The notes under the pieces are model-generated. The model had not been told where the DNA came from, made no database searches, and saw nothing but the letters and a program-made list of their open reading frames with translations. A DNA stretch of 64,000 bases, taken from NCBI RefSeq assembly GCF_001485495.1, contig NZ_BCNF01000037.1:1-64000 (forward strand). Reading direction: 5' to 3'. Both the position numbers and the translations under genes were made by a program. Source of the stretch: Gordonia desulfuricans NBRC 100010. Lineage in GTDB: Bacteria > Actinomycetota > Actinomycetes > Mycobacteriales > Mycobacteriaceae. Below are positions 18,070-36,758 of the stretch, piece by piece; the first letter of the stretch is position 1, and every line of letters begins with the position of its first letter.

Positions 18070-18120
18070 TACGTTTCCTCCACAACATGTTTCATCGAGT
18101 GGCGCAGATACACCAGATCA

Positions 18121-18189
18121 TGATCCGCGCGGGTCACCCCCCAACGCTAAGTCCCACCGCGACGACGATTCCATGTGACGATGACACAT
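18121..18189. promoter_or_regulatory. Inverted repeats in the gap before mvaA
   Basis: The 151-base gap between the regulator gene and mvaA has two candidate operators. TGATCCGCGCGGGTCA at 18121-18136 is a near-perfect 16-base palindrome, and ATGTG-acgatga-CACAT lies at 18173-18189. An 11-mer CACAACATGTT at 18081-18091 also occurs at the start of the GntR gene at 34123. A separate promoter for mvaAB is plausible. Confidence 0.4.
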
Positions 18190-18220
18190 CAAACCGCCCG
18201 ATCCATGTGGTGTCGACCCA

Positions 18221-20176: not shown

Positions 20177-20194
20177 CGACCGCCGCGCAGGCGA

Positions 20195-21100
20195 TCACCG
20201 TCCGCCGACGCCGACCGTGACGGTCTCCAGACGGCCGCCCCGGCGGGTGCCCGCGACGTTCGGGTTGGACGACTCGGCGGTGCAGCACACCAGCGTGCGC
20301 AGGTCGTCGCCGCAGAAGCCCACGGCGAAACACGGCTGCGAGGTCGTGACCACCTCGGTCAGCGTGCCGGTGGCGGCGTCGAACCGCAGCGCCCGGCCCG
20401 AGACCGGATCACTGACCCAGATCCCGTCCGCTGCATCCACGCAGATCCCGTCGGGGAGCACCGCGGCGCCGTCGACCCCGGCGGTCGACAGGTCCACGAC
20501 GGTGCGTCGTTCCCCCAACGCGCCGTCCGCACCGACGGTGAATCCGGTCAGAGCGGCGCCCACCGTCTCGGCGATCACCAGCGTGCCGTCGGCCAGGGTC
20601 ACCGTCCCGTTGGGGAAACGGAGACCGGTTGCAGCCACCTCCGCCGATCCATCCGGATCGACTCGGATGAGATCTGCCGTCGGAGGATTTGCGCCGGGAC
20701 CGAAGAGCGGATCTGCCGCGGGATCGGCCTCCAGCTCGGCGTAGAAGTCGAATCCGAAGGTCCCGACCCAGGCCCGACCCGCCGTGTCGACGAGCATGTC
20801 GTTGGTCGCCCCGCGGGCGAGACCGCTCAGATCGGCGTGGCACGAGGTGGTTCCGTCGGCGGCTACGGCGAGTACCCGTTTGTCGCGCATCGACACCACC
20901 AGCTGGGTGCCATCCGGAAGCCAGCCCATGCCCGACGGCTGGCCGGGGACCTCGGCCACCACTTCGGTGGTGAAGGTGCTCGGGTCCACGGCCAGGAGCT
21001 GGTGTGCGTAGAAGTCCGAGACGTACAGGCGGCCATCGGGGCCGGTGGTCGGCGATTCGGCGAAATGCAGTCCGGTCACGGCAATCTCGGTCGAGACCAT
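20195..21100 (-). CDS. SMP-30/gluconolactonase-family lactonase
   Basis: A 301-residue six-bladed beta-propeller of the SMP-30/gluconolactonase/LRE family. Visible motifs are LHFAESPTTGPDGRLYVSDF (start, with the metal-binding Glu), GQPSGMGWLPDGTQLVVS, GATNDMLVDTAGRAWVGTFG (Asn-Asp metal ligands) and LPDGICVDAADGIWVSD (catalytic Asp region). These enzymes hydrolyse sugar lactones and related esters using one metal ion. ATG 21100 has GGAG about 7 bases upstream; the longer upstream frame is not used. It sits between the MFS transporter and the regulator of the mva cluster. Hydrolysis of mevalonolactone to mevalonate would fit its position, but no lactone can be read from the sequence. Confidence 0.85.
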   Translation of the reverse strand: MVSTEIAVTGLHFAESPTTGPDGRLYVSDFYAHQLLAVDPSTFTTEVVAEVPGQPSGMGWLPDGTQLVVSMRDKRVLAVAADGTTSCHADLSGLARGATNDMLVDTAGRAWVGTFGFDFYAELEADPAADPLFGPGANPPTADLIRVDPDGSAEVAATGLRFPNGTVTLADGTLVIAETVGAALTGFTVGADGALGERRTVVDLSTAGVDGAAVLPDGICVDAADGIWVSDPVSGRALRFDAATGTLTEVVTTSQPCFAVGFCGDDLRTLVCCTAESSNPNVAGTRRGGRLETVTVGVGGR

Positions 21101-21144
21101 GATGTTCTCCAATCCTCGGGTACAGGGTGGGGCGGTGCGGTCGG

Positions 21145-22473
21145 TCAGCGGGCGATCTCTTCCAACGTGGCGCCCGGGGCCACCCGCTTCATGCCCAGAG
21201 CACAGGCGGCGGCGATCAACGGGCAGATCACCAGCCAGATGGTCAGTGTCCATGCGAACCCGATCCCGTTGAACATCCGGGGTCCGGCGAGACCCGCGGC
21301 GACGAATCCGACCCATTCCATACCGGCGACGAGGTTCGCGCCGGTGGCACGCACCCGCGTCGGGAAGACCTCGGCGGCAAAGCCTGCCGCGGCGGTGATG
21401 TGGCCGAGAGTGAAAAAGTACACCATCGAGTAGAAGATCGTCAGCGCGATCACGTCGCGGCCGGCGAATGCGAGGAGGGCACCGGACCCCGCGCCGAGGA
21501 TCAGCCACAGCGCGGCGGCCTCACGTCGGCCGATACGGTCACCGACAACCGAACTAAGGTAGTAGCCGACCGCGGCGATGCCGGTGGCGATGGCCGACGA
21601 CACGTACAGGTTCTCCATCGAGACGCCGTAGTGGGTGTAGACCAACGGCAGGTAGCTGAGGATGCCTGCGACGCCGAAGGCATAGACGAGATGCCAGGTC
21701 GAGGCCAGAATCGACGAGCGACGAAGGTCCGCGGCGAACAGCTGGCGGAATCGGCCCGGGGCGGGCGAGGACGTGGTGGTCACCGCCTCGGAGTGGAGCC
21801 GGAACCGCTCGGTCTCGTCGACCCCGCGACGTGCCCACAGCAACAGGAAGATTGGGATCACGCCGACGACGAACAGCCAGCGCCAGCCGAAGTTGGGAAC
21901 GATCAGCCAGGACAGCAGCGAGCCGGCGAAGAACCCCAGCGGGTAACCGATCTGGGCGAATCCGATCAGTCGTCCACGGGAGCGGGCCGGCGACTCCTCG
22001 GCGACCATCACCTGGCCGGCCATCCACTCGGTGGTGGCCCCGGCCTGGGTGATCGCCCGGCCCAGCAGCAGGATCATGAAGCCACCGGCGCCCGCGGTGA
22101 CGAGACTGCCCAGTGCCGCGGCGAACATGCACAGCTGGAACACCGGCTTACGCCCGAACCGGTCCATGAACGGCCCGGAGATGATGGTGGAGATTGCACC
22201 GACGGCGTAGATGATCGCGTACAGGTTGCCGATGTCGTTGTCGGAGAGACCCAGATCCTCTTGCAGCAGTGGGTAGTTGAGATTGAACAGACTGCCGTCC
22301 ATGTTGACCAGCAGCCAGCCGCCGAGCGAGAGCAGGGTGATCTGCCATGCCCTTCGGTTGACGCCTCTGATCAGAAGGCCCGGTCGTCGCCGAGCGGTGG
22401 AGTCCACCGGACCCGACGGGGCCTGCCGGTCACCGGATGTCGCGGGCACGGCCGCAGGAACCTCATTCGACAT
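21145..22473 (-). CDS. MFS transporter, sugar/organic acid symporter type
   Basis: The 442-residue protein has 12 predicted membrane helices. It shows the MFS loop motif after helix 2 (GPFMDRFGRKPV) and its second-half counterpart (SVVGDRIGRREAA). It resembles the metabolite:H+ symporter group that imports sugars and aromatic or organic acids. It starts at ATG 22473 with AAGGGCAG about 6 bases upstream and is followed after 44 bases by the lactonase gene. As the first gene of the transporter-lactonase-regulator-mvaA-mvaB series, it probably imports the substrate. The 167 bases upstream contain a TTGCGT box and a TTAGCCT box at about 17-base spacing, a possible promoter. Confidence 0.88.
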   Translation of the reverse strand: MSNEVPAAVPATSGDRQAPSGPVDSTARRRPGLLIRGVNRRAWQITLLSLGGWLLVNMDGSLFNLNYPLLQEDLGLSDNDIGNLYAIIYAVGAISTIISGPFMDRFGRKPVFQLCMFAAALGSLVTAGAGGFMILLLGRAITQAGATTEWMAGQVMVAEESPARSRGRLIGFAQIGYPLGFFAGSLLSWLIVPNFGWRWLFVVGVIPIFLLLWARRGVDETERFRLHSEAVTTTSSPAPGRFRQLFAADLRRSSILASTWHLVYAFGVAGILSYLPLVYTHYGVSMENLYVSSAIATGIAAVGYYLSSVVGDRIGRREAAALWLILGAGSGALLAFAGRDVIALTIFYSMVYFFTLGHITAAAGFAAEVFPTRVRATGANLVAGMEWVGFVAAGLAGPRMFNGIGFAWTLTIWLVICPLIAAACALGMKRVAPGATLEEIAR

Positions 22474-22640: not shown

Positions 22641-23480
22641 TCAGCCGCGGCCCCGGGCGAGCGTGCGGCGGGCGATACGGGCCACCGCCTCGTCCACGAG
22701 CCGGCCGCTGCGGTCGGTGACCGCGGCCCCGCCCGCGGCACCGAACGCGGCCAGCACCTCCCGCGCACCGGCGATCTCGTCGTCGGACGGGGCCATCCCG
22801 GCGCGGGCGGGCGGGATCTGCCGTGGATGGATGCAGGCCCGGCCGAAGAAGCCCAGACCGGTCAGGCGTCTGGTCTCGGCGGCGAACGTCTCCGGGTCGT
22901 CGATCACCGGCGACGCCGCACCCAGCGGCGGGCGGATCCGGGCGGCAGCAGAGGCTGCCACCACTTGCGAACGAGCCCAGAGTAATTCGTTCCCGACGAC
23001 GGGAGACACCCCGAGATCGGCAGCGAGGTCGACCTCACCGATCTGGACGAATGTCACGCGCGCGGCCGCCGCGATCTGCACGGCGTTGCACAGCCCGGCA
23101 CCGGTCTCGATCAACGGCGAGACCGGTGTTCGCGGCCGGCCCCAACGATTCTCGAGCTCGGTGAGCACCTGGTCCACGCGGTGCAGGGTCGCGGCGTCGT
23201 CACATTTCGGGAGCCAGATCCCGTCGGCACCGGACCGGACGGCCATGGCCAGGTCGTCGAGGAGTTCCGTCCCGGGGTTGACCCGCACCCACGCGCCCGC
23301 CGCCGACCGCTCACGCGACCCGAGCCACCGCCCCGCGGCTGCGCGAGCGGTGTCCTTGGCCGCCAACGGGACCGCGTCCTCGAGGTCGAGGACCACCGCG
23401 TCGCAGCCCGACACCGCTGCCTTGTCGAACCGTTCGGGACGATCGGCGGGAACGTAGAGGAAGATCAGCTCCGTGGTCAT
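22641..23480 (-). CDS. CitE-like acyl-CoA lyase (HpcH/HpaI family)
   Basis: The 279-residue TIM barrel shows VVLDLEDAVPLAAKD (Mg-binding acidic residues), AWVRVNPGTELL, IWLPKCDDAATL, PLIETGAGLCNA and GRACIHPRQIP, all typical of CitE-like lyases. Stand-alone CitE proteins cleave citramalyl-CoA, malyl-CoA or methylmalyl-CoA. The start overlaps the acyl-CoA dehydrogenase stop by 4 bases (ATGA). In this operon a MaoC hydratase and a CoA-transferase are present, so cleavage of a hydroxyacyl-CoA formed by hydration (for example citramalyl-CoA from itaconyl- or mesaconyl-CoA) is the simplest role. The exact substrate is inferred, not shown. Confidence 0.88.
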   Translation of the reverse strand: MTTELIFLYVPADRPERFDKAAVSGCDAVVLDLEDAVPLAAKDTARAAAGRWLGSRERSAAGAWVRVNPGTELLDDLAMAVRSGADGIWLPKCDDAATLHRVDQVLTELENRWGRPRTPVSPLIETGAGLCNAVQIAAAARVTFVQIGEVDLAADLGVSPVVGNELLWARSQVVAASAAARIRPPLGAASPVIDDPETFAAETRRLTGLGFFGRACIHPRQIPPARAGMAPSDDEIAGAREVLAAFGAAGGAAVTDRSGRLVDEAVARIARRTLARGRG

Positions 23481-24640
23481 CCGACCGTCACGGTGCCGTT
23501 GACCAACGACTTGGCGATCACCGTACGCATGATGTCGTTGGTGCCCTCGCCGATCGACATCAGCGGTGCGTCACGGTAATAGCGCTCGACGTCGAACTCG
23601 GTGGAGTAGCCGTAACCGCCGTGGATGCGCATCGCCTCGAGGCTGGCGGTGATCGCGGTCTCGGAGGCGAAGTACTTCGCCATCCCGGCCTCGCCGTCCA
23701 CTCGCGCCCCTGTATCGGCCTTGGCCGCAGCCCAATACGTCATCAGTCGGGCGGCCTGCAGCTGGGTGGCGATGTCGGCGAGTTTCAGCTGGATGGCCTG
23801 GAAGTCGGCGATGGGCTTGCCGAAGGCATGACGGTCGCGGGCATAGGTCAGCGCGGCGTCGTAGGACGCCTGGGCGATCCCGACGCTACGGCCGGCGATG
23901 TTGAGCCGGCCGATCTCCAGACCGGACAGGGCCTGCTGCATTCCGCGGCCCTCGACCCCGCCGAGGAGGGTGGAGGCCGGGACGCGGACCTCGTCGAGCA
24001 GGATCTCGCACGACTCGGTGCCCTTGTAGCCGAGCTTGCCGAGGTCGCGCTGCACCTCGAACCCGGGCGTGGTGGTGTCGACCAGCAGGATGGCCATCCC
24101 CTTGTGTGCCGGCGAGGCCGACGGGTCGGTCTTGACCAGCACCGGCAGCACGTTCGCATGGCGGGCGTTGGTGATCCACGTCTTGGTGCCGCGGATGACG
24201 TACTCGTCACCGTCACGGGTGGCGGTGGTGGCGATACCCTGCAGATCGGTACCCGCACCGGGCTCGGTGAGACCGATACCGGTGCGGCATTCACCGCTCG
24301 CCAGTCGCGGCAGCCACTGCTGCTTCTGCTCTTCGGTACCGTGCCGGGCGATCATCCAGCACGCCAGATTGTGACTACCGAGGATGCCGGCGACACCCAT
24401 CCAGCCGCGGGCGATCTCCTCGTAGACGAGCGTGAACGACACCATGTCGAGTTCGAGACCGCCGTAGGCCTCGGGCGTGGTGATGCCGAACAACCCCATC
24501 TCCCGCATCCGGGCGACGATCTCGGTGGGATAGCGTCCGGTGCGCTCCCACTCGTTGGCGACCGGGATGATCTCCTTGTCGACGAGTTGGCGAAGCGCCG
24601 ACCGGAAGTCGCGCTGCTCCTCTGTGAAGCTGAAATCCAT
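23477..24640 (-). CDS. Acyl-CoA dehydrogenase
   Basis: FAD-dependent acyl-CoA dehydrogenase, 387 residues, the usual length. It has the N-terminal helical domain (FTEEQRDFRSALRQL), the middle domain with RTGIGLTEPGAGTDLQGI and GTKTWITNARHAN, and the C-terminal RIHGGYGYSTEFDVERYYRD with the Glu region of short-chain enzymes, then IGEGTNDIMR. The ATG at 24640 follows a 66-base gap after the PrpD-like gene. It overlaps the CitE-like gene by 4 bases. It would make an enoyl-CoA for the MaoC hydratase of the same operon. Methylsuccinyl-CoA or a similar branched diacid thioester is one candidate substrate. Confidence 0.9.
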   Translation of the reverse strand: MDFSFTEEQRDFRSALRQLVDKEIIPVANEWERTGRYPTEIVARMREMGLFGITTPEAYGGLELDMVSFTLVYEEIARGWMGVAGILGSHNLACWMIARHGTEEQKQQWLPRLASGECRTGIGLTEPGAGTDLQGIATTATRDGDEYVIRGTKTWITNARHANVLPVLVKTDPSASPAHKGMAILLVDTTTPGFEVQRDLGKLGYKGTESCEILLDEVRVPASTLLGGVEGRGMQQALSGLEIGRLNIAGRSVGIAQASYDAALTYARDRHAFGKPIADFQAIQLKLADIATQLQAARLMTYWAAAKADTGARVDGEAGMAKYFASETAITASLEAMRIHGGYGYSTEFDVERYYRDAPLMSIGEGTNDIMRTVIAKSLVNGTVTVG

Positions 24641-24706: not shown

Positions 24707-26098
24707 CTACGGTCGGTGACCGGCGACGACGGCGGCCGCGAGGGTGAGGATCGGATGCACCGACGGCGCATCGGCCAGGCCGGTGACCACCTCGACGAGG
24801 TTCCGTGCGGGCTCGCCGTCACCGGTGTTGGCCAGGAACTTCTCCGCAACCGCGGCATGGTCCATCGGATTGCCGGAAGTGCCACGGCTACAGTCGACCT
24901 CGCCGACGATCTCGACGCCGTCGAGCAAGGTGATCACCGCGCGGCCCTTGGCGTCGGCGGCCGGGCGGGCGTCGGGCACGGTGGAGATCTCCACCTTTCC
25001 GGCGGTGGCGGCCACCTCCGGGCGCGCGATGGAGTTCTCGTCGTAGGTGTCCACGGTGACCGCCCCGTCGTGCACGAGTGCGGCGACACTCCACGGCAGG
25101 TCGAACTTCGCGTCGTAGACGCTGCGCGGACCCCGTGTGCCGGTCCCCGGTCCGCACACGATGGCCACGCTGTCGGGATGGACGTCGACGGCGATGGACG
25201 CGATCTGTGCGGCCGAGACCGCGATCCCCGAGGTACGTGCATCGGCCAGCGCGCGGCCGACGGCGTCGAGAGTGGCATGCATCAGCTGGCAGCTGGGATA
25301 CGGTTTGATACCGATACTCGCACTCTCCCAACGGGTTCCGAGTTCGCCTACCACCACGTCGGGATCCACGTCACGATCGGCGAGGGCCCGGTACAGACCG
25401 CGCCGACCCTCGAGCACGGACTCCGGGCCACTGGCACCGGCGAGCGCGAGCCGCGCGGCGAGGACACCGGCGAACCCGGCGTTGCCCGGATGCAGGGTCT
25501 TGGTGTTGGCGCCGGTGTCGAGGAACTCGAGCAGGCCGCCCGACGACGACGCGGCGATCCCGAGCGCATCGGTGAGGGCGTCGGCGTCGGCTCCGTAGAG
25601 CAGACCCGCCGCGAGGGCACCGGCCAACGGGCCGACCACCGCGGTGGCGTGCAGTCCGCGGGCATGGAATCCGTGCGGTACCGCCGCGCCGAGACGGCAG
25701 GCCACCTCGAGCCCGGCGATCAGTGCGGTGACCGCCTGCGCGCCGGTGGCGTCGACCTCCTCGGCCACCGCCAGCACGGCCGGGGCGACGACGGTCGTCG
25801 GGTGCACCAGCGCACCGGCGTGGGTGTCGTCGAAGTCGAGGGTGTGCATCAGGACGCCGTTGGCGTACGCGGCGGCCGGCGCCGAGATCGCGGTGACGTC
25901 CCCGAGCGGATGCGCTTGGGCGGGGCCACCCAGCCCCTGTGCGACGGCCAGCCCGGGACCTCCCTGGTCACGGCGTCGTGCGCCAATCCCGTTGCCCACG
26001 CCGTCGAGCAGGTGCCGCAGCGCGGCCCGACGGGTGGTCTCCGGCACGGCACCCACGTCGAGTCCGGCGGCCCACTCGGCGAGGCGGCGCGCGGTCAT
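24707..26098 (-). CDS. MmgE/PrpD family protein
   Basis: The 463-residue protein has the two-part MmgE/PrpD fold. Visible segments include YANGVLMHTLDFDDTHAGALVHPTTVV (quoted in part: HTLDFDDTHAG), LEVACRLGAAVPHGFHARG and KPYPSCQLMHATLDAV. The family includes 2-methylcitrate dehydratase, cis-aconitate decarboxylase and iminodisuccinate epimerase, so the reaction cannot be named from fold alone. Its ATG (26098) overlaps the CoA-transferase stop in ATGA. With a CoA-transferase, MaoC hydratase and CitE-like lyase in the same operon, work on a branched di- or tricarboxylate is likely. Confidence 0.88.
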   Translation of the reverse strand: MTARRLAEWAAGLDVGAVPETTRRAALRHLLDGVGNGIGARRRDQGGPGLAVAQGLGGPAQAHPLGDVTAISAPAAAYANGVLMHTLDFDDTHAGALVHPTTVVAPAVLAVAEEVDATGAQAVTALIAGLEVACRLGAAVPHGFHARGLHATAVVGPLAGALAAGLLYGADADALTDALGIAASSSGGLLEFLDTGANTKTLHPGNAGFAGVLAARLALAGASGPESVLEGRRGLYRALADRDVDPDVVVGELGTRWESASIGIKPYPSCQLMHATLDAVGRALADARTSGIAVSAAQIASIAVDVHPDSVAIVCGPGTGTRGPRSVYDAKFDLPWSVAALVHDGAVTVDTYDENSIARPEVAATAGKVEISTVPDARPAADAKGRAVITLLDGVEIVGEVDCSRGTSGNPMDHAAVAEKFLANTGDGEPARNLVEVVTGLADAPSVHPILTLAAAVVAGHRP

Positions 26099-27306
26099 GC
26101 CGTCTCCTGCACGATCTTCCCGAAGGCACCCGCGTCGACCAGGCCGCGAATCTCGTCGGCACTGTAGCCCAGCATGGTCATCACCTCGTCGAAGTTCTCG
26201 TTGCGGTGCGGTGCGCGACGGTAGCGGACCGGATCGTCACCGAACCGTACCGGGGAGGTCACCTGCCGCACCTCACCCCACACCTCGTGGTCGGTGGTCG
26301 CGATGAGCCCCCGGGCCACGGTGTGTTCCTCGGTGAGCGCCTGCTCGACGTCGTTGATCGGCCCGGTCGGCACACCCGCCGCGGTCAGCAGCGACACCCA
26401 GTGATCCACCGAGTTCTCGGCAAACCGGTTCTCCAGCAACGGAAGCAGATCGTCCTTGTGCTCACCACGCGCGGTGAAGTCGACGAACCGCGGGTCGTCG
26501 AGCAGATCGGCCAGACCGATCGCCTCGACCAGGCGCACCCAGAACTTCTCTTTGGCGCATCCGACGACGAACCATCCGTCGACGGCCTCGAAGGCCTGGA
26601 ACGGCACCAGCGACGGATGAGCGGAGTTCTTGGTCCGGACCGGCCGGAAGCCGGCGTTGAGATGCCAGGCCGCCGGGTAGGTGAGCATCGAGATCGCCGT
26701 GTCGTACAGCGACACATCGCAATCACCCCCGACACCGTCACGCCGCGCGGCGTGCAGGCCGGCCATCAGACTCAGTGCCGCCACGTACCCACCGCAGAAG
26801 TCCACCAGGGACAGACCGGATTTGGTCGGCGGACCGTCCGGGTCACCGGTCAGGTCCATCCAGCCGGCCAGCCCCTGCAGGATGTAGTCGTAGCCGGGCT
26901 GTCGTGACCGCGGTCCGGTCATGCCGAAACCGGTGAGACTGCAGCAGACGATGGCCGGGTTGAGGTGTTTGAGGTCGTCGTAGGTGATCCGCATCTTCGC
27001 GGGCACGTCCCCGCGGAGATTGGAGTACACCGCGTCACTCGTGGCCACCAGATCCTCGAAGACCTTGCGGCCCTCCGGGGTTCCCAGATCCAGCGACAGG
27101 CTGCGCTTGTTCCGGTTGAACGTCTCGAAGAACAGCGAGTCCTCACCGGAGTTGTACGGCGGTACATAACGCCCCACGTCGCCGCCGGACGACGGCTCCT
27201 CGATCTTGAGGACGTCGGCACCGAGATCGGCGAGGTGTACGCTGCCGAACGGGCCCGCACCGTACTGTTCGATCGCGATGATGCGGACGTCCTCGAGTGG
27301 CCTCAT
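26095..27306 (-). CDS. Family III CoA-transferase (CaiB/BaiF/FRC type)
   Basis: The 403-residue protein begins MRPLEDVRIIAIEQYGAGPF, the standard start of CaiB/BaiF CoA-transferases. It continues with LADLGADVLKIEEPSSGGD and NRNKRSLSLDLGTPEG. The segment GLSLVDFCGGYVAALSLM includes the Asp at the expected catalytic position (by analogy to formyl-CoA transferase). Such enzymes move CoA from succinyl-CoA or another donor to carboxylic acids. ATG 27306 overlaps the MaoC stop in ATGA, and the longer upstream frame is antisense-like. It would activate the acid used by the following enzymes, for example itaconate, mesaconate or citramalate (inference). Confidence 0.9.
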   Translation of the reverse strand: MRPLEDVRIIAIEQYGAGPFGSVHLADLGADVLKIEEPSSGGDVGRYVPPYNSGEDSLFFETFNRNKRSLSLDLGTPEGRKVFEDLVATSDAVYSNLRGDVPAKMRITYDDLKHLNPAIVCCSLTGFGMTGPRSRQPGYDYILQGLAGWMDLTGDPDGPPTKSGLSLVDFCGGYVAALSLMAGLHAARRDGVGGDCDVSLYDTAISMLTYPAAWHLNAGFRPVRTKNSAHPSLVPFQAFEAVDGWFVVGCAKEKFWVRLVEAIGLADLLDDPRFVDFTARGEHKDDLLPLLENRFAENSVDHWVSLLTAAGVPTGPINDVEQALTEEHTVARGLIATTDHEVWGEVRQVTSPVRFGDDPVRYRRAPHRNENFDEVMTMLGYSADEIRGLVDAGAFGKIVQETA

Positions 27307-27860
27307 CGGTGCCCCTCGGCCGCGGCGGGTGCGGCGAGTTCGGTCAACGACGGCGCCTTGACCTCCGGGAAGTAGTTCTGACCGATACCGCTCTCGCGCG
27401 TGGCCACCATCACCGACCGCTTCCAGGAGACGACCACCTCGCCGTCCTGGTTGATCCCGCGGGTCACCATCGAGACGATGCCTGCATACGGCCGCGACTG
27501 CGACAGGCGCAGATCGGTGCAGATGCTCTCGGCGTAGATCGTGTCCCCCACATAGACCGGGTGGGCCAGCGTGACATCGGTGAACTGCAGGTTGGCCACC
27601 GCGTTCTGGCTCATGTCGATCACCGAGAGTCCCAGGACCAGTGCGATGGTCAGGCCCGAGTTGACGATGACCTTGCCGTCGGTGATGGGGTTCTGCCGGG
27701 CCAGGTGCTCGTTGAAGTGGTTCTGGTTGGTGTTCATCGACAGGCAGGTGATCCACGCGTTGTCGGTGTCGGTGATCGTGCGGCCCATCGGGTGCTGGTA
27801 GACGTCGCCCACGACGTAGTCCTCGAAGAAGCGCCCGAGTGTGGCGGGGTGGGTGGTCAA
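27303..27860 (-). CDS. MaoC-type acyl-CoA hydratase
   Basis: A 185-residue single hot-dog domain. It shows LGRFFEDYVVGDVYQHPMGRT at the start (read as FFEDYVVGDVYQHP), the active-site helix SMNTNQNHFNEHLARQ and TLAHPVYVGDTIYAES, which matches mesaconyl- or itaconyl-CoA hydratase-like MaoC proteins. I chose TTG 27860 because AGGAGG ends 4 bases before it and similarity begins there; the longer frame to 27944 is less likely. It is the first gene of the five-gene operon, and its stop overlaps the CoA-transferase start. It should add water to an enoyl-CoA to give a hydroxyacyl-CoA for the CitE-like lyase. Confidence 0.87.
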   Translation of the reverse strand: MTTHPATLGRFFEDYVVGDVYQHPMGRTITDTDNAWITCLSMNTNQNHFNEHLARQNPITDGKVIVNSGLTIALVLGLSVIDMSQNAVANLQFTDVTLAHPVYVGDTIYAESICTDLRLSQSRPYAGIVSMVTRGINQDGEVVVSWKRSVMVATRESGIGQNYFPEVKAPSLTELAAPAAAEGHR

Positions 27861-27916: not shown

Positions 27917-28005
27917 CGTAAACCTCTGATCTTTTACGAGTCAAGGCGTGGGCGATGCAGGCAATTCTTGAAATATTCGGCTAGGGGTTGCCGTAAACCT
28001 CCGAT
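27917..28005. promoter_or_regulatory. Paired direct repeat in the maoC/hydantoinase divergent promoter
   Basis: CCGTAAACCTCTGAT at 27916-27930 recurs as CCGTAAACCTCCGAT at 27991-28005, 75 bases apart (about seven helical turns). The first copy is also half of an inverted repeat CGTAAA-N10-TTTACG (27917-27938). The stretch between is AT-rich for this genome. The pair looks like operators for a regulator of both divergent operons. Confidence 0.5.
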
Positions 28006-28064
28006 GTATTGCAAGATTTTCGGCGAGCACATGTATGGCTCAGATCACTCCCGTCAGTGAGCAC

Positions 28065-28103
28065 CACCCCGACCCGGGCACCACCCCGGTCCGGGTCGGG
28101 GTG
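28065..28103 (+). promoter_or_regulatory. Perfect 13-bp hairpin in the leader of the hydantoinase operon
   Basis: CACCCCGACCCGG at 28065-28077 pairs exactly with CCGGGTCGGGGTG at 28091-28103 around a 13-base loop, ending 28 bases before the hydantoinase A start. No T-run follows. It could be an attenuator, an mRNA-stabilising stem or an operator. A nine-codon frame (ATG 28031 to TGA 28060, MYGSDHSRQ) ends just before it, without a clear ribosome binding site. Confidence 0.5.
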
Positions 28104-28131: not shown

Positions 28132-30210
28132 ATGAAGCGAATCGGCGTGGATGTGGGCGGCACGTTCACCGACCTGGTCCTGTGGGACGACGACGGGACG
28201 GTGACGGTACACAAGACGCCGTCGACCAACCACGACCCCTCGATCGGCACGATGGACGGCATCGAGGTGCTCGCCGAGCGCGCGGGAATCGACGTCGCCG
28301 ACATCGAGATGTTCTTCCACGGGACCACCGTGGCCACCAACATCGTGCTCGAGCACAACGGCAGTGACGTCGGCATGATCACCACCGACGGCTTCCGCGA
28401 CCTCCTCCACATCGCCCGCAAGAAGCGGCCCCTGAACTACTCCAACTACCAGGATCTGCCCTGGCAGAAGTGGCAGCTGGTCCCCCGCCGCAACCGGCGC
28501 ACCGTCCCCGAGCGGATGGACGCCGCCGGCACCGTACTGACCCCGCTCGACGAGGACGCCGTCCGCCGCGAGGTGGCCCTGCTCCGCGAACGGGGGGTCG
28601 AGGCGATCGCCGTGGCCTTCCTGCACGCCTACCGCAACCCGAGCCACGAGCAGCGGGTCCGCGAGATCATCGCCGAGGAGTACCCCGGGGTGTTCGTCTC
28701 GCTCTCCAGCGACGTCGCCTCCCAGTACCGCGAATACGAACGCTTCTCCACCACCGCACTCAACGCCTTCGTCGGCCCCAAGACCTCCCGCTACATCGAG
28801 AACCTGGCCGGCAAGGCCAAGGCCGGCCGGGTCGGCGAGGACGTCCACCTGATGACCTCCGCCGGTGGCCTGGTCACCTCGCGCAGCGCGAGCGAGGTGC
28901 CGGTGTCGCTGCTGACCAGCGGCGTCGTCGCAGGTCTGCTCGGCGGCTGTTTCATCGGCAAGGCGTCGGGCTACCCCAGCGTCATCACCCTCGACGTGGG
29001 CGGCACCTCCGCCGACATCGGCGTGGCCCCCGACGGCAAGCTGCGGATGAAGCACCTGCTCGACACGCGGATCGGCGACTACCACGCCATGGTCCCGATG
29101 GCCGAGGTCGACACCATCGGTGCCGGCGGCGGCTCCATCGCGAGCATCGACGAGGGCGGGATGTTCCGCGTCGGCCCCCGCAGCGCCGGGGCCACCCCCG
29201 GACCCGCCTGCTACAACCGCGGCGGCACCGAACCGACATCGACCGACGCGATGGTCGTGATGGGCTGGCTGCGCGAGGACAGCTTCCTGTCGGGAACCAT
29301 GGAGGTCAAGACCGAACTCGCCACCGAGGCGGTCCGCACCCACATCGCCGACAAGCTCGGCGCCGACCTCGAGCATGCCGCGATGGGCATCTTCCAGATC
29401 CTGGCCCACTCGATGACCGAGGCCATCTCGCTGCATTCGGTGCGCAAAGGCTATGACCCCCGCGACTTCTCGCTGGTGGCCGAGGGCGGGGCCGGCCCCC
29501 TCTACGCATGGCAGATCGCCGAGCACCTGGGTATCCCCCGGGTCATCGTCCCCGGTCATCCCGGTATCACCTCGGCAGTCGGTCTGCTGACCACCGACGT
29601 GCGTTACGAAGTGCCCACCACCGTGTGGACCTCTTCTGCCGAACCCGATCTCGACCTCCTGCGCCGGGAGATGGACCGGCTCTCCGCACAGGCCGTCGAC
29701 CAACTGCGTGCCGACGGCATCGCCGACGACGACATCACCCTCGAGTACAGCGTCGACTGTCGTTATGTCGGACAGGGTTACGAGTTGCGCGTACCCGCTC
29801 CCGGCGGCGAGGTCACCGCCGACTGGGTCGAGCAGACCGCGGCCACCTTCCACGAGGTACACGGGCGCACCTACTCCCAGCGTTTCGACGACAAGCCGGT
29901 GCAGCTGGTCAACCTCCGCGTCACCGGAGTCGGTGCCGTCGAACACATCCGGATCGCCGAGATCGAGAAGGGCGGGGCCGACGCCTCCGCCGCCGTCAAG
30001 GCCACCACCCGGGCCCTGTTCTGGAAGAACGACTCCGCCGATCCCGAGTGGGTCGAGACCCCGATCTACGACCGCGCACTGTTCAAGGCGGGCAACACCT
30101 TCGAGGGTCCCGCGATCGTCCAGCAGCTCGACTCGACGACGATCGTCGGCATCGGACAGAAGGCCACGGTCGACGCCGTGGGTCACATCATCATCGAGAG
30201 GAGCGCCTGA
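28132..30210 (+). CDS. Hydantoinase/oxoprolinase subunit A
   Basis: The 692-residue protein starts MKRIGVDVGGTFTDLVLWD, the N-terminal ATP-binding Hydant_A_N segment. It then shows FHGTTVATNIVLE, ISLSSDVASQYREYERFSTT-like text (SSDVASQYREYERF), TLDVGGTSADIGVAPDG and GAGGGSIASIDEGG. Family members hydrolyse N-methylhydantoin, 5-oxoproline, caprolactam or other cyclic amides with ATP, or carboxylate acetone-type ketones together with subunit B. ATG 28132 has GAGGA about 11 bases upstream. The next gene starts 1 base after its stop, as expected for a two-subunit enzyme. The adjacent amidase suggests a lactam or cyclic imide as substrate. Confidence 0.92.
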   Translation: MKRIGVDVGGTFTDLVLWDDDGTVTVHKTPSTNHDPSIGTMDGIEVLAERAGIDVADIEMFFHGTTVATNIVLEHNGSDVGMITTDGFRDLLHIARKKRPLNYSNYQDLPWQKWQLVPRRNRRTVPERMDAAGTVLTPLDEDAVRREVALLRERGVEAIAVAFLHAYRNPSHEQRVREIIAEEYPGVFVSLSSDVASQYREYERFSTTALNAFVGPKTSRYIENLAGKAKAGRVGEDVHLMTSAGGLVTSRSASEVPVSLLTSGVVAGLLGGCFIGKASGYPSVITLDVGGTSADIGVAPDGKLRMKHLLDTRIGDYHAMVPMAEVDTIGAGGGSIASIDEGGMFRVGPRSAGATPGPACYNRGGTEPTSTDAMVVMGWLREDSFLSGTMEVKTELATEAVRTHIADKLGADLEHAAMGIFQILAHSMTEAISLHSVRKGYDPRDFSLVAEGGAGPLYAWQIAEHLGIPRVIVPGHPGITSAVGLLTTDVRYEVPTTVWTSSAEPDLDLLRREMDRLSAQAVDQLRADGIADDDITLEYSVDCRYVGQGYELRVPAPGGEVTADWVEQTAATFHEVHGRTYSQRFDDKPVQLVNLRVTGVGAVEHIRIAEIEKGGADASAAVKATTRALFWKNDSADPEWVETPIYDRALFKAGNTFEGPAIVQQLDSTTIVGIGQKATVDAVGHIIIERSA

Positions 30211-30211
30211 C

Positions 30212-32032
30212 ATGGCGAAGGCCCTGATGCCCAAGGACGGCGTTTCCCTTGCCGCCGAGGCGAATCGGACGTGGAACACCGTCGAGGTCGACCCCATCAC
30301 CCTGCGCGTCATCGGCGGTGCGCTCAACTCCATGGCCAAGGAGATGGCCCAGGTCTTGTACCGGATGGCCTATTCGAGCCTCATCCGCGAGTCCGAGGAC
30401 CTCGGTGCGGGCATCTTCGATGTCAACGGACGTGAGCTGTGCGAGTCGGATTCGACTCCCATGCACTGCGGTTCGATCCCGGCCTACATCCGCGGCGTCA
30501 ACCGGCGCCTGGCCGGCACGTACCGACCCGGCGACGTGATCCTGCACAACCATCCGTATCACGGTGCCGCACACTCCCCCGACTACGGCGTGATCATCCC
30601 CATCTTCTGGGAGGGCGAGCACATCGGATTCGCCGGGTGCACCGGACACGTCTCCGACATCGGCGGCAACTTCCCCGGTCTGTGCATGGACGTCGTCGAC
30701 GTCTGGGCCGAGGGCAAGCTGATGGACTCGATGAAGATCTACGACGGCGGCGTGCGCAACGACATGCTGATCCAGCACATCCTGGACAATGTGCGTACCC
30801 CCGAGCAGAACCGCGGTGACCTCGAGGCGCTGATCGCCTGCTCGCGGATCGGCGAGAAGCGGTTCATCGAACTGCTCGAGAAGTACGGTCTCGACGTGGT
30901 GATGAGCGCCGCCGACCGCTGGATGGACTACTCCGAGGAGATGCTGCGCAGCCGGATCCGGGCGATCCCCAACGGCAGCTACGAGGCGCCGCTCGGCTAT
31001 CTCGACGACGACGGCAAGAACCGCGGTGTGCCGCTGAAGGTCGCGGTGCGCGTGCAGGTGGAGGACGAGGACGTCCTGATCGACCTGACCGGTTCCAACG
31101 ACCAGGTGCCGACGGCGTTCAACGTGCCCTTCGAGGGGTCGGTGTTGCCGGTCGCGGTGAGCGCGATCCGCACGATCCTGCTCGACGAGTACCTCACCGA
31201 GGAGTTCGTCCCGCAGAACGACGGCTGTTTCCGTCCCGTGCGGGCCTACGCACCCGAGGGAACGATCTTCAACCCGGACTTCCCGGCGTCGTGTTTTGCA
31301 CGGTTCTCGCAGGTCAACCGGATCTTCGACTCGATCAACCTGGCGTTGGCGCCGGTGTTGCCGGAGCGGGCGATCGCCGGCTCGTCGGCGGCACTGTGCG
31401 CGATCGCCTATTCGGGTCTGGCCGAGGACGGCGAGTCGTACTGGGTCTACATCGAGATCAACGAGGGCTCCTACGGTGCGCGCAACGGCAAGGACGGGAT
31501 GGATGCGGTGGACGCCCTGATGGCCAACACCCGCAACAACCCGATCGAAGAACTCGAGCTCAACCACGCCATGCGCGCCGAACGCTACGAGCTGCGTGAC
31601 GAGTCGCCCGCGCCCGGCCGGTGGCGCGGCGGTATCGGCAGCGTGCGCACCTGGTACATGCAGACCGACACCTTCCTGGGCTCGGAGGCCGACAACCGGA
31701 CCGACCCGCCGGCGGGCGCGCTCGGCGGCGGTGACGGAGCGTCCGGATCGTTCATACGCAATCCCGGCACGCCCGACGAGGAGGTGCTGTTCTCGAAGGT
31801 CACCCAGGAGGTCGTCCACGCCGGAGATCGCCTGGAGATCCGGATGCCGTCGGGCGGCGGATTCGGCGATCCCTTCCTGCGCGATCCGTTCGCGGTGCTC
31901 TCCGACGTGTGGGACGAGTACCTCACCGCCGAGGAGGCCCGCCGCGACTACGGTGTCGTCGTGAACACCGACGACTGGACGATCGACGCCGCTGCCACCG
32001 AGCAGGCGCGCTCGTCCCGGGTGGCGTCCTGA
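30212..32032 (+). CDS. Hydantoinase/oxoprolinase subunit B
   Basis: The 606-residue partner of subunit A. It begins MAKALMPKDGVSLAAEANRT; the conserved part starts at VDPITLRVIGGALNSMAKEM and continues with RESEDLGAGIFDVNG, CTGHVSDIGGNFPGLCMD and the glycine-rich end PSGGGFGDPFLRDP. ATG 30212 has GAGAGGAG about 9 bases upstream. Its TGA stop (30030-30032 of the 32 kb line, i.e. 32030-32032) abuts the amidase reading frame. Together with subunit A it should form the ATP-dependent ring-opening enzyme. Confidence 0.92.
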   Translation: MAKALMPKDGVSLAAEANRTWNTVEVDPITLRVIGGALNSMAKEMAQVLYRMAYSSLIRESEDLGAGIFDVNGRELCESDSTPMHCGSIPAYIRGVNRRLAGTYRPGDVILHNHPYHGAAHSPDYGVIIPIFWEGEHIGFAGCTGHVSDIGGNFPGLCMDVVDVWAEGKLMDSMKIYDGGVRNDMLIQHILDNVRTPEQNRGDLEALIACSRIGEKRFIELLEKYGLDVVMSAADRWMDYSEEMLRSRIRAIPNGSYEAPLGYLDDDGKNRGVPLKVAVRVQVEDEDVLIDLTGSNDQVPTAFNVPFEGSVLPVAVSAIRTILLDEYLTEEFVPQNDGCFRPVRAYAPEGTIFNPDFPASCFARFSQVNRIFDSINLALAPVLPERAIAGSSAALCAIAYSGLAEDGESYWVYIEINEGSYGARNGKDGMDAVDALMANTRNNPIEELELNHAMRAERYELRDESPAPGRWRGGIGSVRTWYMQTDTFLGSEADNRTDPPAGALGGGDGASGSFIRNPGTPDEEVLFSKVTQEVVHAGDRLEIRMPSGGGFGDPFLRDPFAVLSDVWDEYLTAEEARRDYGVVVNTDDWTIDAAATEQARSSRVAS

Positions 32033-32160
32033 CCCCAGGGTTCGGCGGGGCCGGCGACGGTGCCGGCCCCGCCGATCTCCCCGGTTCGGATCTCCCCGGT
32101 TCCGCCGCACCCGACGCCGGTGTCCCGCCGACCGGCGGGATCGTCGACGTCGCCGAACGG

Positions 32161-33372
32161 TTGAACACCGTCATCTCGTGGGTTCCGGCGTCCTCGGGTA
32201 CCGACCCGGATGTGACGTCGGGACCGCTGAGCGGTGTGCGGATCGGGGTGAAGGACAACATCGCAGTGGGCGGCGTGCGCTCGACCTGCGGTTCGGCGTA
32301 CTTCGCCGATCGGATCGCCGAATCCGACGCCGAGTGCGTGGGCGCGCTCAAACGGGCCGGTGCGATCATCACCTCCACCCTCAATCTCGCCGAGTTCGCC
32401 GTCGGTGTCACCAGTCAGAACTCCGCATCCGGTGGACCGGTGAACCCGTGGGACCCGGCCCGGGTCCCGGGCGGCTCCAGCGGCGGGTCCGGGGTCGCGG
32501 TGGCCGCCGGGATCGTCGACGTCGCGCTCGGCACCGACACCGGCGGGTCGATCCGCCTGCCCGCGGCCTGCTGCGGTGTGACCGGGCTACGCCCCTCGAT
32601 CGGCACCCTCGACATGACCGGGATCTTTCCGGTGAGCGCCGGTTTCGACACCGTGGGACCGATCGCCCGTACCGCATCGCTGGTACACCGCACACTGTCG
32701 GCCCTGGTCGACTTCGATGTGGCACCCCGGCACGACGGGCCGTTGCGGATCGCGGTGCCGTGGCCGTTCGTGACCGCCGACGTCGACCCGGCGATCGGCG
32801 AGGCGGTCCGTACCACCACCGAGCTGCTCCGACGGCTCGGCCACACGGTGGTCGACATCCCGATCCCACACAGCGAATCGGCCCAGGACGTGGTCTACAC
32901 GCTGATCTACTCCGACCTCGCACGGACACATGCACAACGGCTCGGCGACGAGCCCAGCCGGTTCCAGCCTGCGACCCGCGAGCGGATCAGCTTGGGGCTG
33001 AGCATCTCCGACGATCGCCGCGATGCCGCGCTCCGAGGGCGGGATGTGTTCCGGGCGGCGATGGTTCGGGTGTTCGCCGAGGCCGACGTGGTGCTGACGC
33101 CGGCCATGCCGGTCGATGTCCCGCCCCTCGGCGGCGATGACGCGGTGATCGCCCAGGCCCGTCGGATGGGGCAACTCACCTATCCGTGGTCGTTGCACAC
33201 CGGCCCCACCCTGGCCCTGCCGATCGGGATACATCCGTCCGGCATGCCGATCGGTGGCCAGCTGACCGCCGCCGAGACCGATGAAGGACTCCTGCTCGCA
33301 CTGGCCGAACAGATCCAGGACCACACCGACTGGCACCTGCGGACTCCGCCGATCCACGTCGACCGACGGTGA
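32161..33372 (+). CDS. Amidase (amidase signature family)
   Basis: An amidase of the Ser-cisSer-Lys family. It has [18 protein letters not shown] (catalytic Lys), [27 protein letters not shown] (quoted in part: [11 protein letters not shown], the cis-Ser loop) and [17 protein letters not shown] with the nucleophilic Ser. The 403 residues from TTG 32161 include the whole core, but similarity may begin a little earlier ([12 protein letters not shown]). No ATG, GTG or TTG lies in frame between 31909 and 32161, so the true start may be CTG 32029, which overlaps the subunit B stop as CTGA. It follows subunit B closely and probably cleaves the linear amide made by ring opening. Confidence 0.87.
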
Positions 33373-33399
33373 GGCCGCCCAGCGGGCCGACCGGCTGGT

Positions 33400-34125
33400 T
33401 CAGCCCTGACGTCTGAGCAGATCCATCTGCTTGTAGACGTCACCGAGGTGGTCGAGGTGGCGGCGCATGAGTGTCATCGCCGTCATCGAGTCCCGACGTT
33501 CGACCGCCTCGAGAATGGCCCGGTGGTCGGCGTCGACGCACCGCCAGAACCCCTCGGGCGCGGCATCGCGACTGAACCTGCTGCCGATCACCCGGAACAC
33601 CGGGACGGTCACCAGGTCGAGCAGGGGGTTGTCGGCGGCGCGCAGCAGGATGCGGTGGAACTCCTGGTTGTTCGCATAGACCTCGGGGCCGATCTCGGCC
33701 GACGGGTCGAAGATGGTGGCGCGCAACTCTTCCAGATGCAGATCGGTGTGCCGGAAGGCGGCCGCACCGGCGGCCGGGACCTCGGTGAGCTGACGGACCT
33801 CCATCAGCTGGTCGACGGTGACCGCCTCGGCGGCGGCGAGGAGTGTCACCCCGGCCTCGAGGTGGGCGCTGAGCTGCCCGATGTCGGGCGTGGCGACGAA
33901 TGTCCCGCCGGTGACACCGCGGGTGGTGTGGACCAGGTTCTCGCTGGCGAGTGAACGGATCGCCTCGCGGACGGTGCTCTGCCCGACACCGAACTCGGCG
34001 CGCAGCTCGGCGTCGGGTGGCAGTCGCGTTCCCGGGGTCAGCTCACCGGCCAGAATCCGTGTGCGAAGCGCATCGGCGACGACCTCGTACGCCGGCCGTC
34101 TACCGGACTTATTCGCCTCTGTCAC
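33400..34125 (-). CDS. GntR-family regulator, FadR subfamily
   Basis: The 241-residue protein has an N-terminal GntR winged helix (about residues 8-75) with LRTRILAGELTPGTRLPPD and EFGVGQSTVREAIRSLASE. A C-terminal all-helical FCD ligand-binding domain follows (about 95-225) with NQEFHRILLRAADNPLLD, DADHRAILEAVERRD and RRHLDHLGDV, including the His residues that bind a metal in this family. The GTG at 34125 is chosen over the longer frame because the domain begins right after it. It is convergent with the amidase (27 bases apart) and divergent from the hydrolase at 34226. It is the likely repressor of the hydantoinase operon. Confidence 0.9.
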   Translation of the reverse strand: MTEANKSGRRPAYEVVADALRTRILAGELTPGTRLPPDAELRAEFGVGQSTVREAIRSLASENLVHTTRGVTGGTFVATPDIGQLSAHLEAGVTLLAAAEAVTVDQLMEVRQLTEVPAAGAAAFRHTDLHLEELRATIFDPSAEIGPEVYANNQEFHRILLRAADNPLLDLVTVPVFRVIGSRFSRDAAPEGFWRCVDADHRAILEAVERRDSMTAMTLMRRHLDHLGDVYKQMDLLRRQG

Positions 34126-36341: not shown

Positions 36342-36758
36342 GATCATCGTCCGGATGCGACGAGGTCCAAGGACACCGCCACCAGCCTCGGCCCGATGCT
36401 GGTCACCCCGGACGAACTCGAGGACGTCCGCTCGGGACGTGGCCACCGCCTGTCGATGGTGGCGAGCGTCAACGGCGTCGAGATCTCGTCCGGGAACTGG
36501 TCGGACCTCCATTGGTCGTTCGGCGACATGATCGCCTACGCCTCACGCGGAACCCGTGTGGCACCCGGTGATCTCATCGGGAGCGGGACCGTCGCCACGG
36601 GATGTCTGCTCGAGCACATCGGGGTGGACCCGACCTCCGACCGGTGGCTGTCACCGGGAGACGTCGTCACCCTGGAGATCGAGCGGCTCGGCCGGATCCG
36701 ATCGACGGTCCGTGCCGCGCGTCCGGTCCCCGAGATCCCGGCACCGGCCACGGTCTGA
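36342..36758 (+). pseudogene. Remnant of a fumarylacetoacetate hydrolase family gene
   Basis: The frame after a TAG at 36339 reads RSKDTATSLGPMLVTPDELE, then MIAYASRGTRVAPGDLIGSG and WLSPGDVVTLEIERLG. These are the C-terminal part of the FAH fold (metal and substrate loops to the end). The N-terminal half, including the catalytic Glu/Asp cluster, is missing, and a stop blocks the frame upstream. An ATG at 36396 would give 120 residues, too short to be active. The upstream bases to the kinase gene show no remaining similarity, so this is a 5'-deleted relic. Confidence 0.75.

Follow-up and report, generated by a model that had tools for sequence, protein, structure and literature searches.

A set of nine genes in Gordonia desulfuricans NBRC 100010 probably uses adenosine triphosphate (ATP) to open a small nitrogen-containing ring, releases ammonia and catabolises the remaining acid. 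The genes lie in a stretch of 64,000 nucleotides, positions 1-64,000 of contig NZ_BCNF01000037.1, designated here as the window. Its span 28132-34125 encodes the two subunits of an enzyme of the hydantoinase/oxoprolinase family (HyuA and HyuB), an amidase and a GntR regulator. The other five genes encode MaoC, CaiB, MmgE/PrpD, an acyl-CoA dehydrogenase (ACAD) and CitE, and are designated as the coenzyme A (CoA) arm. Genes were called from open reading frames and their translations, and families were assigned with Pfam and NCBIfam profile searches. The original prediction for this DNA had placed HyuA, HyuB, the amidase and a convergent FadR-type regulator in this span, and both coordinates and gene calls are exact by the open reading frames and Pfam. 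The divergence from a CoA operon is also confirmed, with the order MaoC-CaiB-MmgE/PrpD-ACAD-CitE on the minus strand. Judging from its conservation, the cluster is a real, conserved catabolic unit, and its operators indicate that it is co-regulated.

HyuA was matched at E ≤ 1e-150 in 17 of 151 relatives (numbers with L and G below denote loci and genomes). Fourteen of these, including the window, have orthologues, and the others of the 14 show 82-97% identity; the remaining three matches are paralogues at 40-42%, and the orthologue of G019 was found only in pieces. The paralogues of about 40% identity at L034-L036 are without the operon and were not counted as orthologues. All nine genes were matched in 13 of the 13 other orthologous loci (tblastn, E ≤ 1e-10), with HyuA, HyuB and CitE frameshifted in L033 and CaiB in two pieces in L024. 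In L078 (Gordonia amicalis NBRC 100051), as in L033, the HyuA, HyuB and CitE matches are split between frames, through decay or assembly errors.

A scan of a genome collection extended the comparison to 47 named actinobacterial loci, many of which are from closely related species and therefore non-independent. They are from Gordonia, Nocardia, Rhodococcus/Rhodococcoides, Brevibacterium, Pseudonocardia, Saccharopolyspora, Amycolatopsis, Prauserella, Tamaricihabitans, Nocardioides, Aeromicrobium, Actinoallomurus, and one metagenome-assembled genome (MAG) of an actinomycete. The nine genes were all matched in 35 of them (tblastn, E ≤ 1e-8), and the lowest identities are the 33% of CitE and MmgE in Brevibacterium. 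At least one gene is missing from the other 12 (L042, L045, L046, L048, L049, L051, L052, L065, L069, L074, L081, and L082).

The order of the genes is variable. In Gordonia, the arms are divergent and GntR is downstream; a GntR convergent to the amidase is also seen in Aeromicrobium (L058) and others. In Rhodococcus and most Nocardia, the arms are divergent and GntR is between MaoC and HyuA. Thus, the convergence of regulator and amidase noted in the original prediction is correct for the window, while it is only one among several layouts. Seven loci of the Amycolatopsis type are co-directional in the order MaoC-CaiB-ACAD-CitE-HyuA-HyuB-amidase, and the amidase is displaced in four Brevibacterium loci. 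HyuA, HyuB and the amidase are adjacent and co-directional in 41 of the 47 loci, the exceptions being the four Brevibacterium loci, L081 and L082. Of the synteny data, this reshuffling in which the partners stay together argues most strongly for one function.

The nine genes are also the only widely shared content of these loci. Eight protein families are present in at least 31 of the 47 loci, and they correspond to the nine genes, the number being one lower presumably because a fused protein of L081 joins HyuA and HyuB in one family. No pyridoxal-phosphate-dependent or amine-oxidising enzyme, isochorismatase or sarcosine oxidase is among the families in at least 31 loci. The next families, in at most 13 of the 47 loci, begin with parts of an ATP-binding cassette (ABC) transporter; not all smaller families were identified. 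At a locus of the deep-branching MAG G160 (HyuB 55%), MaoC-MmgE-ACAD are divergent from HyuAB, and an alcohol-dehydrogenase-like gene precedes HyuA (by eye). Since this distant locus keeps the divergent pairing, it suggests that the association of the two arms is old. This MAG (L081/L140) contains 14 HyuB matches. One of its HyuA-HyuB pairs is a fused protein of 1293 amino acids, followed by two thiolase-like genes, a small gene and a ligase-like gene (by eye).

Alignment of the divergent intergenic region revealed a 17-bp palindrome, TAAACATCNGATGTTTA. In the genome of the window, three places match it at ≤3 mismatches, two of them in this intergenic region, while the reversed control gives none. 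Among 62 loci (1.28 Mb; the second copies L030-L032 and the near-identical Gordonia loci L021-L028 and L033 left out), 78 sites at ≤3 mismatches were found, whereas 100 shuffled palindromes of equal composition gave 0.34 sites on average and 8 at most, a contrast that is not a probability, the palindrome having been derived partly from these loci, which are related. At ≤2 mismatches in 20 genomes, 36 of 37 sites are at the cluster, at its detached arms or at a linked ABC importer; the one other site belongs to G007, and the control matched once in a single genome, G163. Sites occur in the gaps between MaoC and HyuA, between MaoC and GntR, and between GntR and HyuA, at detached CoA arms (L095-L099), and upstream of the gene of an ABC binding protein (L050, L057, L059, L062, L072, and L076; detached in G173, L133). 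A variant, AAAYGTCWGANRTATTGC, precedes MaoC in all 8 of the 8 aligned Amycolatopsis-type loci.

The palindromes are often paired. In 33 of the 62 loci, a second copy is 41-129 bp away, and the spacing is 63-64, 73-76, 84-85 or 96 bp in all but two pairs, as counted with partners at up to five mismatches and without a spacing control. These spacings are about six to nine turns of DNA, and therefore two dimers would face the same side. The GntR protein is presumed to bind the palindrome, being the putative binder because of the position of its gene. A GC-rich inverted repeat at 28061-28103 of the window is directly upstream of HyuA, and its first arm is missing in aligned relatives (by eye).

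The two arms co-occur even where they are not adjacent. CaiB was matched at E ≤ 1e-120 in 16 of the 151 relatives, namely all 14 with a HyuA orthologue and two others (hypergeometric 6e-18, ignoring kinship). Ten of the 12 genomes with incomplete loci were searched (not those of L069 and L082), and all 10 contain a CaiB orthologue, with best matches of 56-76% identity; the incompleteness of L045 is only a contig break (L104). In G151-G158, the CoA arm, whole or nearly so, is at a place separate from the Hyu locus, and in G151-G154 this detached arm carries operators. Synteny, co-occurrence and shared operators thus support the original prediction that the two divergent arms belong to one pathway, and it is very probable that they constitute one regulon.

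The ring-opening subunits carry the domains of their family above cut-off (PF05378 at 183.8 bits and PF01968 at 255.2 bits in HyuA; PF02538 at 498.3 bits in HyuB). In the alignment, the ATP-site aspartates and the GATPGP motif of HyuA are kept. The metal ligands of the caprolactamase subunit CapB are D41, H99, D102 and H124 according to section 2.7 of PMC8453981, and all are kept in HyuB, as D63, H121, D124 and H146. The abstract of that paper gives D101 for D102, and the residue count along the CapB chain supports D102. With ATP motifs and these ligands intact, the assignment of HyuAB to the ATP-dependent amidohydrolase type, as originally predicted, is supported. HNHP in place of HNDP in HyuB was at one point regarded as an altered metal ligand or a trait unique to the clade; this was dropped, as all CapB ligands given in section 2.7 are kept and relatives of the N-methylhydantoinase type also have HNHP.

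The nearest solved chain is 7hk5, a fused protein named 'N-methylhydantoinase' (733 bits to HyuA and 656 bits to HyuB), and the second is caprolactamase (435 bits for HyuA against CapA, 211 bits for HyuB). In a FastTree phylogeny of 18 HyuB proteins, the clade of the window is separate with support 1.000. Plasmid-borne HyuB relatives outside the clade show 47-50% identity. The context of the Mesorhizobium relative includes a sarcosine oxidase, an isochorismatase-family hydrolase and an NCS1 transporter, and that of the Azoarcus relative includes isochorismatase-family and NCS1 genes. An amidase gene is close to the relatives from Agrobacterium rubi and Aminobacter MSH1; the Aminobacter MSH1 relative is also accompanied by MaoC, CaiB and ACAD genes, which the window CaiB and ACAD match at 28% and 31%.

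The amidase matches PF01425 at 287.5 bits, and its best NCBIfam matches are AtzE-type. The original prediction had the amidase following HyuB at once. It is indeed the next gene on the same strand, while the stop codon of HyuB lies about 130 nucleotides ahead of the conserved region of the amidase start, where the window has no in-frame ATG or GTG and only the CTG at 32029 and the TTG at 32161. A strong hairpin lies in the intervening stretch. In six aligned sequences, 2 of 13 pairs differ in both partners and still pair. Of 17 loci scanned without a shuffled control, 16 have a hairpin, and GC-rich DNA favours such stems; L053 has none, and L025 has only 8 bp. The hairpin sequences are unlike one another between Gordonia, Rhodococcus and Amycolatopsis. 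The hairpin is possibly an attenuator or an mRNA stabiliser, and may set the ratio of HyuAB to amidase.

In the CoA arm, MaoC scores 149.2 bits against the RipB equivalog (cut-off 340) and CitE scores 159.6 bits against the RipC equivalog (cut-off 375), and neither cut-off is reached. MmgE/PrpD probably epimerises a chiral carbon adjoining a carboxyl group. This role is proposed because the best solved match is iminodisuccinate epimerase (134 bits, equal within noise to the 133.5 bits of Bacillus subtilis IRG1) and because a contig of MAG G160 that has no MmgE carries an Asp/Glu/hydantoin racemase together with a CaiB relative. The residues of cis-aconitate decarboxylase were tried as a discriminator, and they do not separate epimerase from decarboxylase. 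Luciferase-family genes are in or beside the CoA arm at L094, L101 and L105, and by similarity also at L100 and L103; their best models are coenzyme F420-dependent types, and only L105 passes the cut-off. In 12 Gordonia loci (L021-L027, L033, L078-L080, and L083; several represent the same genome twice), a gene of about 480-520 amino acids is beside or near CitE, and the one member scanned has no Pfam match. On a plasmid of Rhodococcus pyridinivorans SB3094 (L084, 12116-14146), MmgE is shortened (594 nucleotides annotated) beside an IS256 transposase, with the cluster otherwise complete.

Taken together, these enzymes would form the following route. The imported compound would have a ring with nitrogen in it, and a cyclic imide built on a 2-substituted succinate is the likeliest candidate. 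HyuA would activate this compound with ATP, and hydrolysis at the metal site of HyuB would give a half-amide. The amidase would free ammonia and leave a substituted dicarboxylate, from which CaiB would form the CoA ester. ACAD would introduce a double bond, MaoC would hydrate the unsaturated ester to a CoA ester of the malyl, citramalyl or citryl type, and the CitE-like lyase would cleave this into an acyl-CoA and a 2-oxo acid. The probable epimerisation by MmgE/PrpD would act on the chiral carbon beside the carboxyl group. GntR would repress both arms through palindromes spaced by whole helical turns until the substrate or an intermediate releases it.

The choice of an imide follows from the conserved gene content. 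Because the amidase is conserved and no amine-handling enzyme is, nitrogen plausibly leaves through the amidase, as fits an imide. CitE-type lyases require a hydroxyl and a carboxyl group on the carbon beta to the thioester; therefore, a 2-substituted succinate is expected as the diacid. Pyruvate would result from methylsuccinate, and oxaloacetate from tricarballylate; the diacid may be a C5 compound, as the original prediction called it. Among the candidates of that prediction, imides would fit best. Pyrrolidinone, valerolactam, caprolactam and 5-oxoproline would fit less well, since simple lactams yield amino acids, for which no amine-handling enzyme is available in the conserved set.

The full reading with a cyclic imide is modestly favoured, and several observations weigh against it. 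Every enzyme of the cluster stays under the cut-offs of the NCBIfam families listed for it (the best 25 of 26 in the case of the amidase), and therefore enzyme specificities are not readable from family models. HNHP is common to N-methylhydantoinase-type enzymes, so that the residues examined do not favour an imide over a hydantoin. The lack of an amine-handling enzyme applies to the widely conserved families, no search for one having been made elsewhere in the genomes, and the Rhodococcus plasmids of BX2 and PD04 carry a gene annotated as PLP-dependent aminotransferase family (PLP, pyridoxal phosphate) about 3 kb beyond CitE. The importers near the cluster vary by lineage and indicate no single substrate class: NMT1-type ABC in Rhodococcoides and, by similarity, Nocardia; TctABC and the major facilitator superfamily (MFS) in Brevibacterium; and, in Pseudonocardia and Saccharopolyspora, an MFS gene within the CoA arm. 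The residues shared by MmgE/PrpD are family-wide, and the argument that a racemase replaces MmgE is weak, because the single MAG G160 also has an MmgE (40%) at another locus beside another HyuAB. On the side of regulation, a palindrome site at ≤3 mismatches is present in 40 of the 62 loci and absent from 22, and the limits stated above for the operator counts and pair spacings apply. Finally, G148 keeps MaoC-CaiB-ACAD-CitE and an amidase (51%) without close HyuAB (best HyuB 31%), and in G095 (86% complete) CaiB is present while HyuB has no match; thus, this ring opening is not a prerequisite for the presence of the CoA arm.

The most serious alternative is a hydantoin route, with a substituted hydantoin as the substrate: ring opening by HyuAB would yield an N-carbamoyl amino acid, the amidase would take off its carbamoyl group, and the CoA arm would process the remainder. 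The N-methylhydantoin context of the plasmid-borne relatives from Mesorhizobium and Azoarcus and the name of 7hk5 point this way, as do the AtzE-type matches of the amidase, since AtzE relatives act on carbamoyl groups. However, the product would be an amino acid, and neither an amine-removing family nor an isochorismatase or sarcosine oxidase belongs to the widely shared families, so this route is considered unlikely, with some chance left to it. An amino acid would also be the product of a caprolactamase-like opening of a lactam. CapA (585 bits) and CapB (254.3 bits) are the best NCBIfam matches of the two subunits, and the ATP site and the metal site of section 2.7 are common with CapAB, but both scores are far under the 1000-bit cut-offs, and the vicinal cysteines C410-C411 of CapB fall in an alignment gap at both positions. 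Conservation of an amidase, and not of an amine-handling enzyme, is again contrary to such a product, and the lactam route is improbable.

The amidase may instead hydrolyse a carboxamide on the imported compound before, or independently of, ring opening. G148, with amidase and CoA genes only, is compatible with this order, and the hairpin that precedes the amidase may indicate that this gene is controlled separately; the adjacency and common direction of HyuA, HyuB and the amidase in 41 of the 47 loci speak against it, and this order of events is quite unlikely. That HyuAB is an acetone- or acetophenone-carboxylase-type enzyme, the alternative named in the original prediction, would be consistent with the distant homology to carboxylase subunits. 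It is very improbable, because the gamma subunit (PF08882) is absent from this locus, and the single match of the genome (C111:5603-5926) stands with other Hyu paralogues at another locus; here, an amidase follows AB instead. Two unrelated operons that merely adjoin would explain why the arms are at separate places in some genomes and why CoA genes occur without close HyuAB in G148 and G095. Such independence is hardly credible, given that separated arms still co-occur and that detached CoA arms in G151-G154 carry the operators.

The coordinates of the features are collected in Table 1.

Table 1. Genes and sequence elements of the cluster in the window.
Feature	Coordinates	Strand	Remarks
HyuA, ATP-binding (ASKHA) subunit, 692 amino acids	28132-30210	+	PF05378, PF01968, PF19278; D7, D288, GATPGP intact
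HyuB, metal-hydrolase subunit	30212-32032	+	PF02538; ligands D63, H121, D124, H146
Amidase-signature amidase	32029-33372 (start CTG 32029 or TTG 32161)	+	PF01425
Hairpin between HyuB and amidase	32040-32077	+	16-bp arms, 6-nucleotide loop, one mismatch
FadR/GntR (FCD) regulator	33400-34125	-	PF00392 and PF07729; presumed palindrome binder
MaoC-type enoyl-CoA hydratase, first gene of divergent arm	27303-27860	-	Relatives: RipB/Ich and mesaconyl-CoA hydratase
CaiB/BaiF class III CoA-transferase	26095-27306	-	Nearest models are dicarboxylate types
MmgE/PrpD protein, proposed epimerase	24707-26098	-	Best solved match iminodisuccinate epimerase
Acyl-CoA dehydrogenase (ACAD)	23477-24640	-	Family profile match
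CitE-like CoA-ester lyase	22641-23480	-	RipC/Ccl relative
Operator copy 1, TAAACCTCTGATCTTTT	27919-27935	no strand	3 mismatches to TAAACATCNGATGTTTA
Operator copy 2, TAAACCTCCGATGTATT	27994-28010	no strand	3 mismatches to TAAACATCNGATGTTTA; 75 bp from copy 1

Beyond the CoA arm, positions 15836-22407 (minus strand) encode an HMG-CoA (3-hydroxy-3-methylglutaryl-CoA) lyase, an HMG-CoA reductase and a PucR-type regulator (these three by eye), an SMP-30 lactonase and an MFS transporter, which look like a mevalonate/mevalonolactone set. The MFS and SMP-30 genes were considered as parts of the pathway and dropped, since they have no match in 13 close loci (about 20 kb each) and adjoin the HMG-CoA reductase/lyase set. 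Near detached CoA arms, a PucR relative (L096 and L097) and an HMG-CoA reductase relative (L097) were seen. At 36396-36758 (plus strand), only the C-terminal part of a fumarylacetoacetate-hydrolase domain is present (PF01557, positions 123-214 of 214), apparently a truncated relic.

Several known systems share parts of this gene set. The N-methylhydantoin amidohydrolases of the Paracoccus/Mesorhizobium/Azoarcus type are alike in HyuA/HyuB family, ATP motifs and 47-50% HyuB identity. HNHP is also found there, but not in the fused 7hk5, which has Gln where the window HyuB has its fourth metal ligand. They differ in that the cluster here lacks their context of N-carbamoylsarcosine hydrolase and sarcosine oxidase genes, with sarcosine oxidase, isochorismatase and NCS1 not among the conserved families, and in the separate HyuB clade. 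N-methylhydantoinase is reported by Ogawa et al. to act also on succinimide and glutarimide. The itaconate system RipABC (Ict-Ich-Ccl) is similar in having RipB and RipC relatives, a CoA-transferase and an ending with a CoA-lyase, while the window proteins score under its cut-offs and are joined by ACAD, MmgE/PrpD, HyuAB and the amidase. Unlike CaiB, RipA is not known to be a class III CoA-transferase. In Mycobacterium sp. INA1, isonicotinate and citrazinate are reportedly degraded through a glutarimide and propane-1,2,3-tricarboxylate (Kretzer and Andreesen); the genes were not compared here. No molybdenum hydroxylase is among the neighbouring genes identified, which are not all of them, and in this the cluster differs from the INA1 isonicotinate route. 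In the anaerobic indoleacetate pathway, the product is a substituted succinate that enters CoA chemistry, the ring nitrogen is kept as an aniline, and no amidase is known to take part. Its hydantoinase-like enzyme IaaCE, as mentioned in PMC8453981, provides a Hyu-type ring opening as proposed here. Caprolactamase CapAB of Pseudomonas jessenii has an ATP site (D11/D295) and metal ligands, as given in the same paper, with counterparts here, while the window proteins are under the equivalog cut-offs, lack the vicinal cysteines, and are coupled to amidase and CoA genes.

The enzyme classes are known, and no description of this gene set was found in the open-access literature searched (titles and openings of abstracts; most subscription papers are outside it). 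That these classes are combined in a fixed way across many actinobacterial genera, both on contigs from many species and on plasmids of Rhodococcus, indicates a compound that is common in the environment. The palindrome is a ready reporter: a compound that de-represses the divergent promoter would be the substrate or its precursor. It would also be of help in assigning functions within the hydantoinase/oxoprolinase family, where many members have none established. A widespread actinobacterial cyclic-imide pathway that combines ATP-dependent imide opening, half-amide cleavage, epimerisation, a substituted-succinyl-CoA route and a helically phased two-operator switch is put forward only tentatively. 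If the imide pathway is true, its substrates could be pyrrole-2,5-diones from haem or chlorophyll breakdown, or glutarimide carboxylates from pyridine carboxylic acids, and the luciferase-family, possibly F420-dependent gene of L094, L100, L101, L103 and L105 could be a reductase that saturates the ring.

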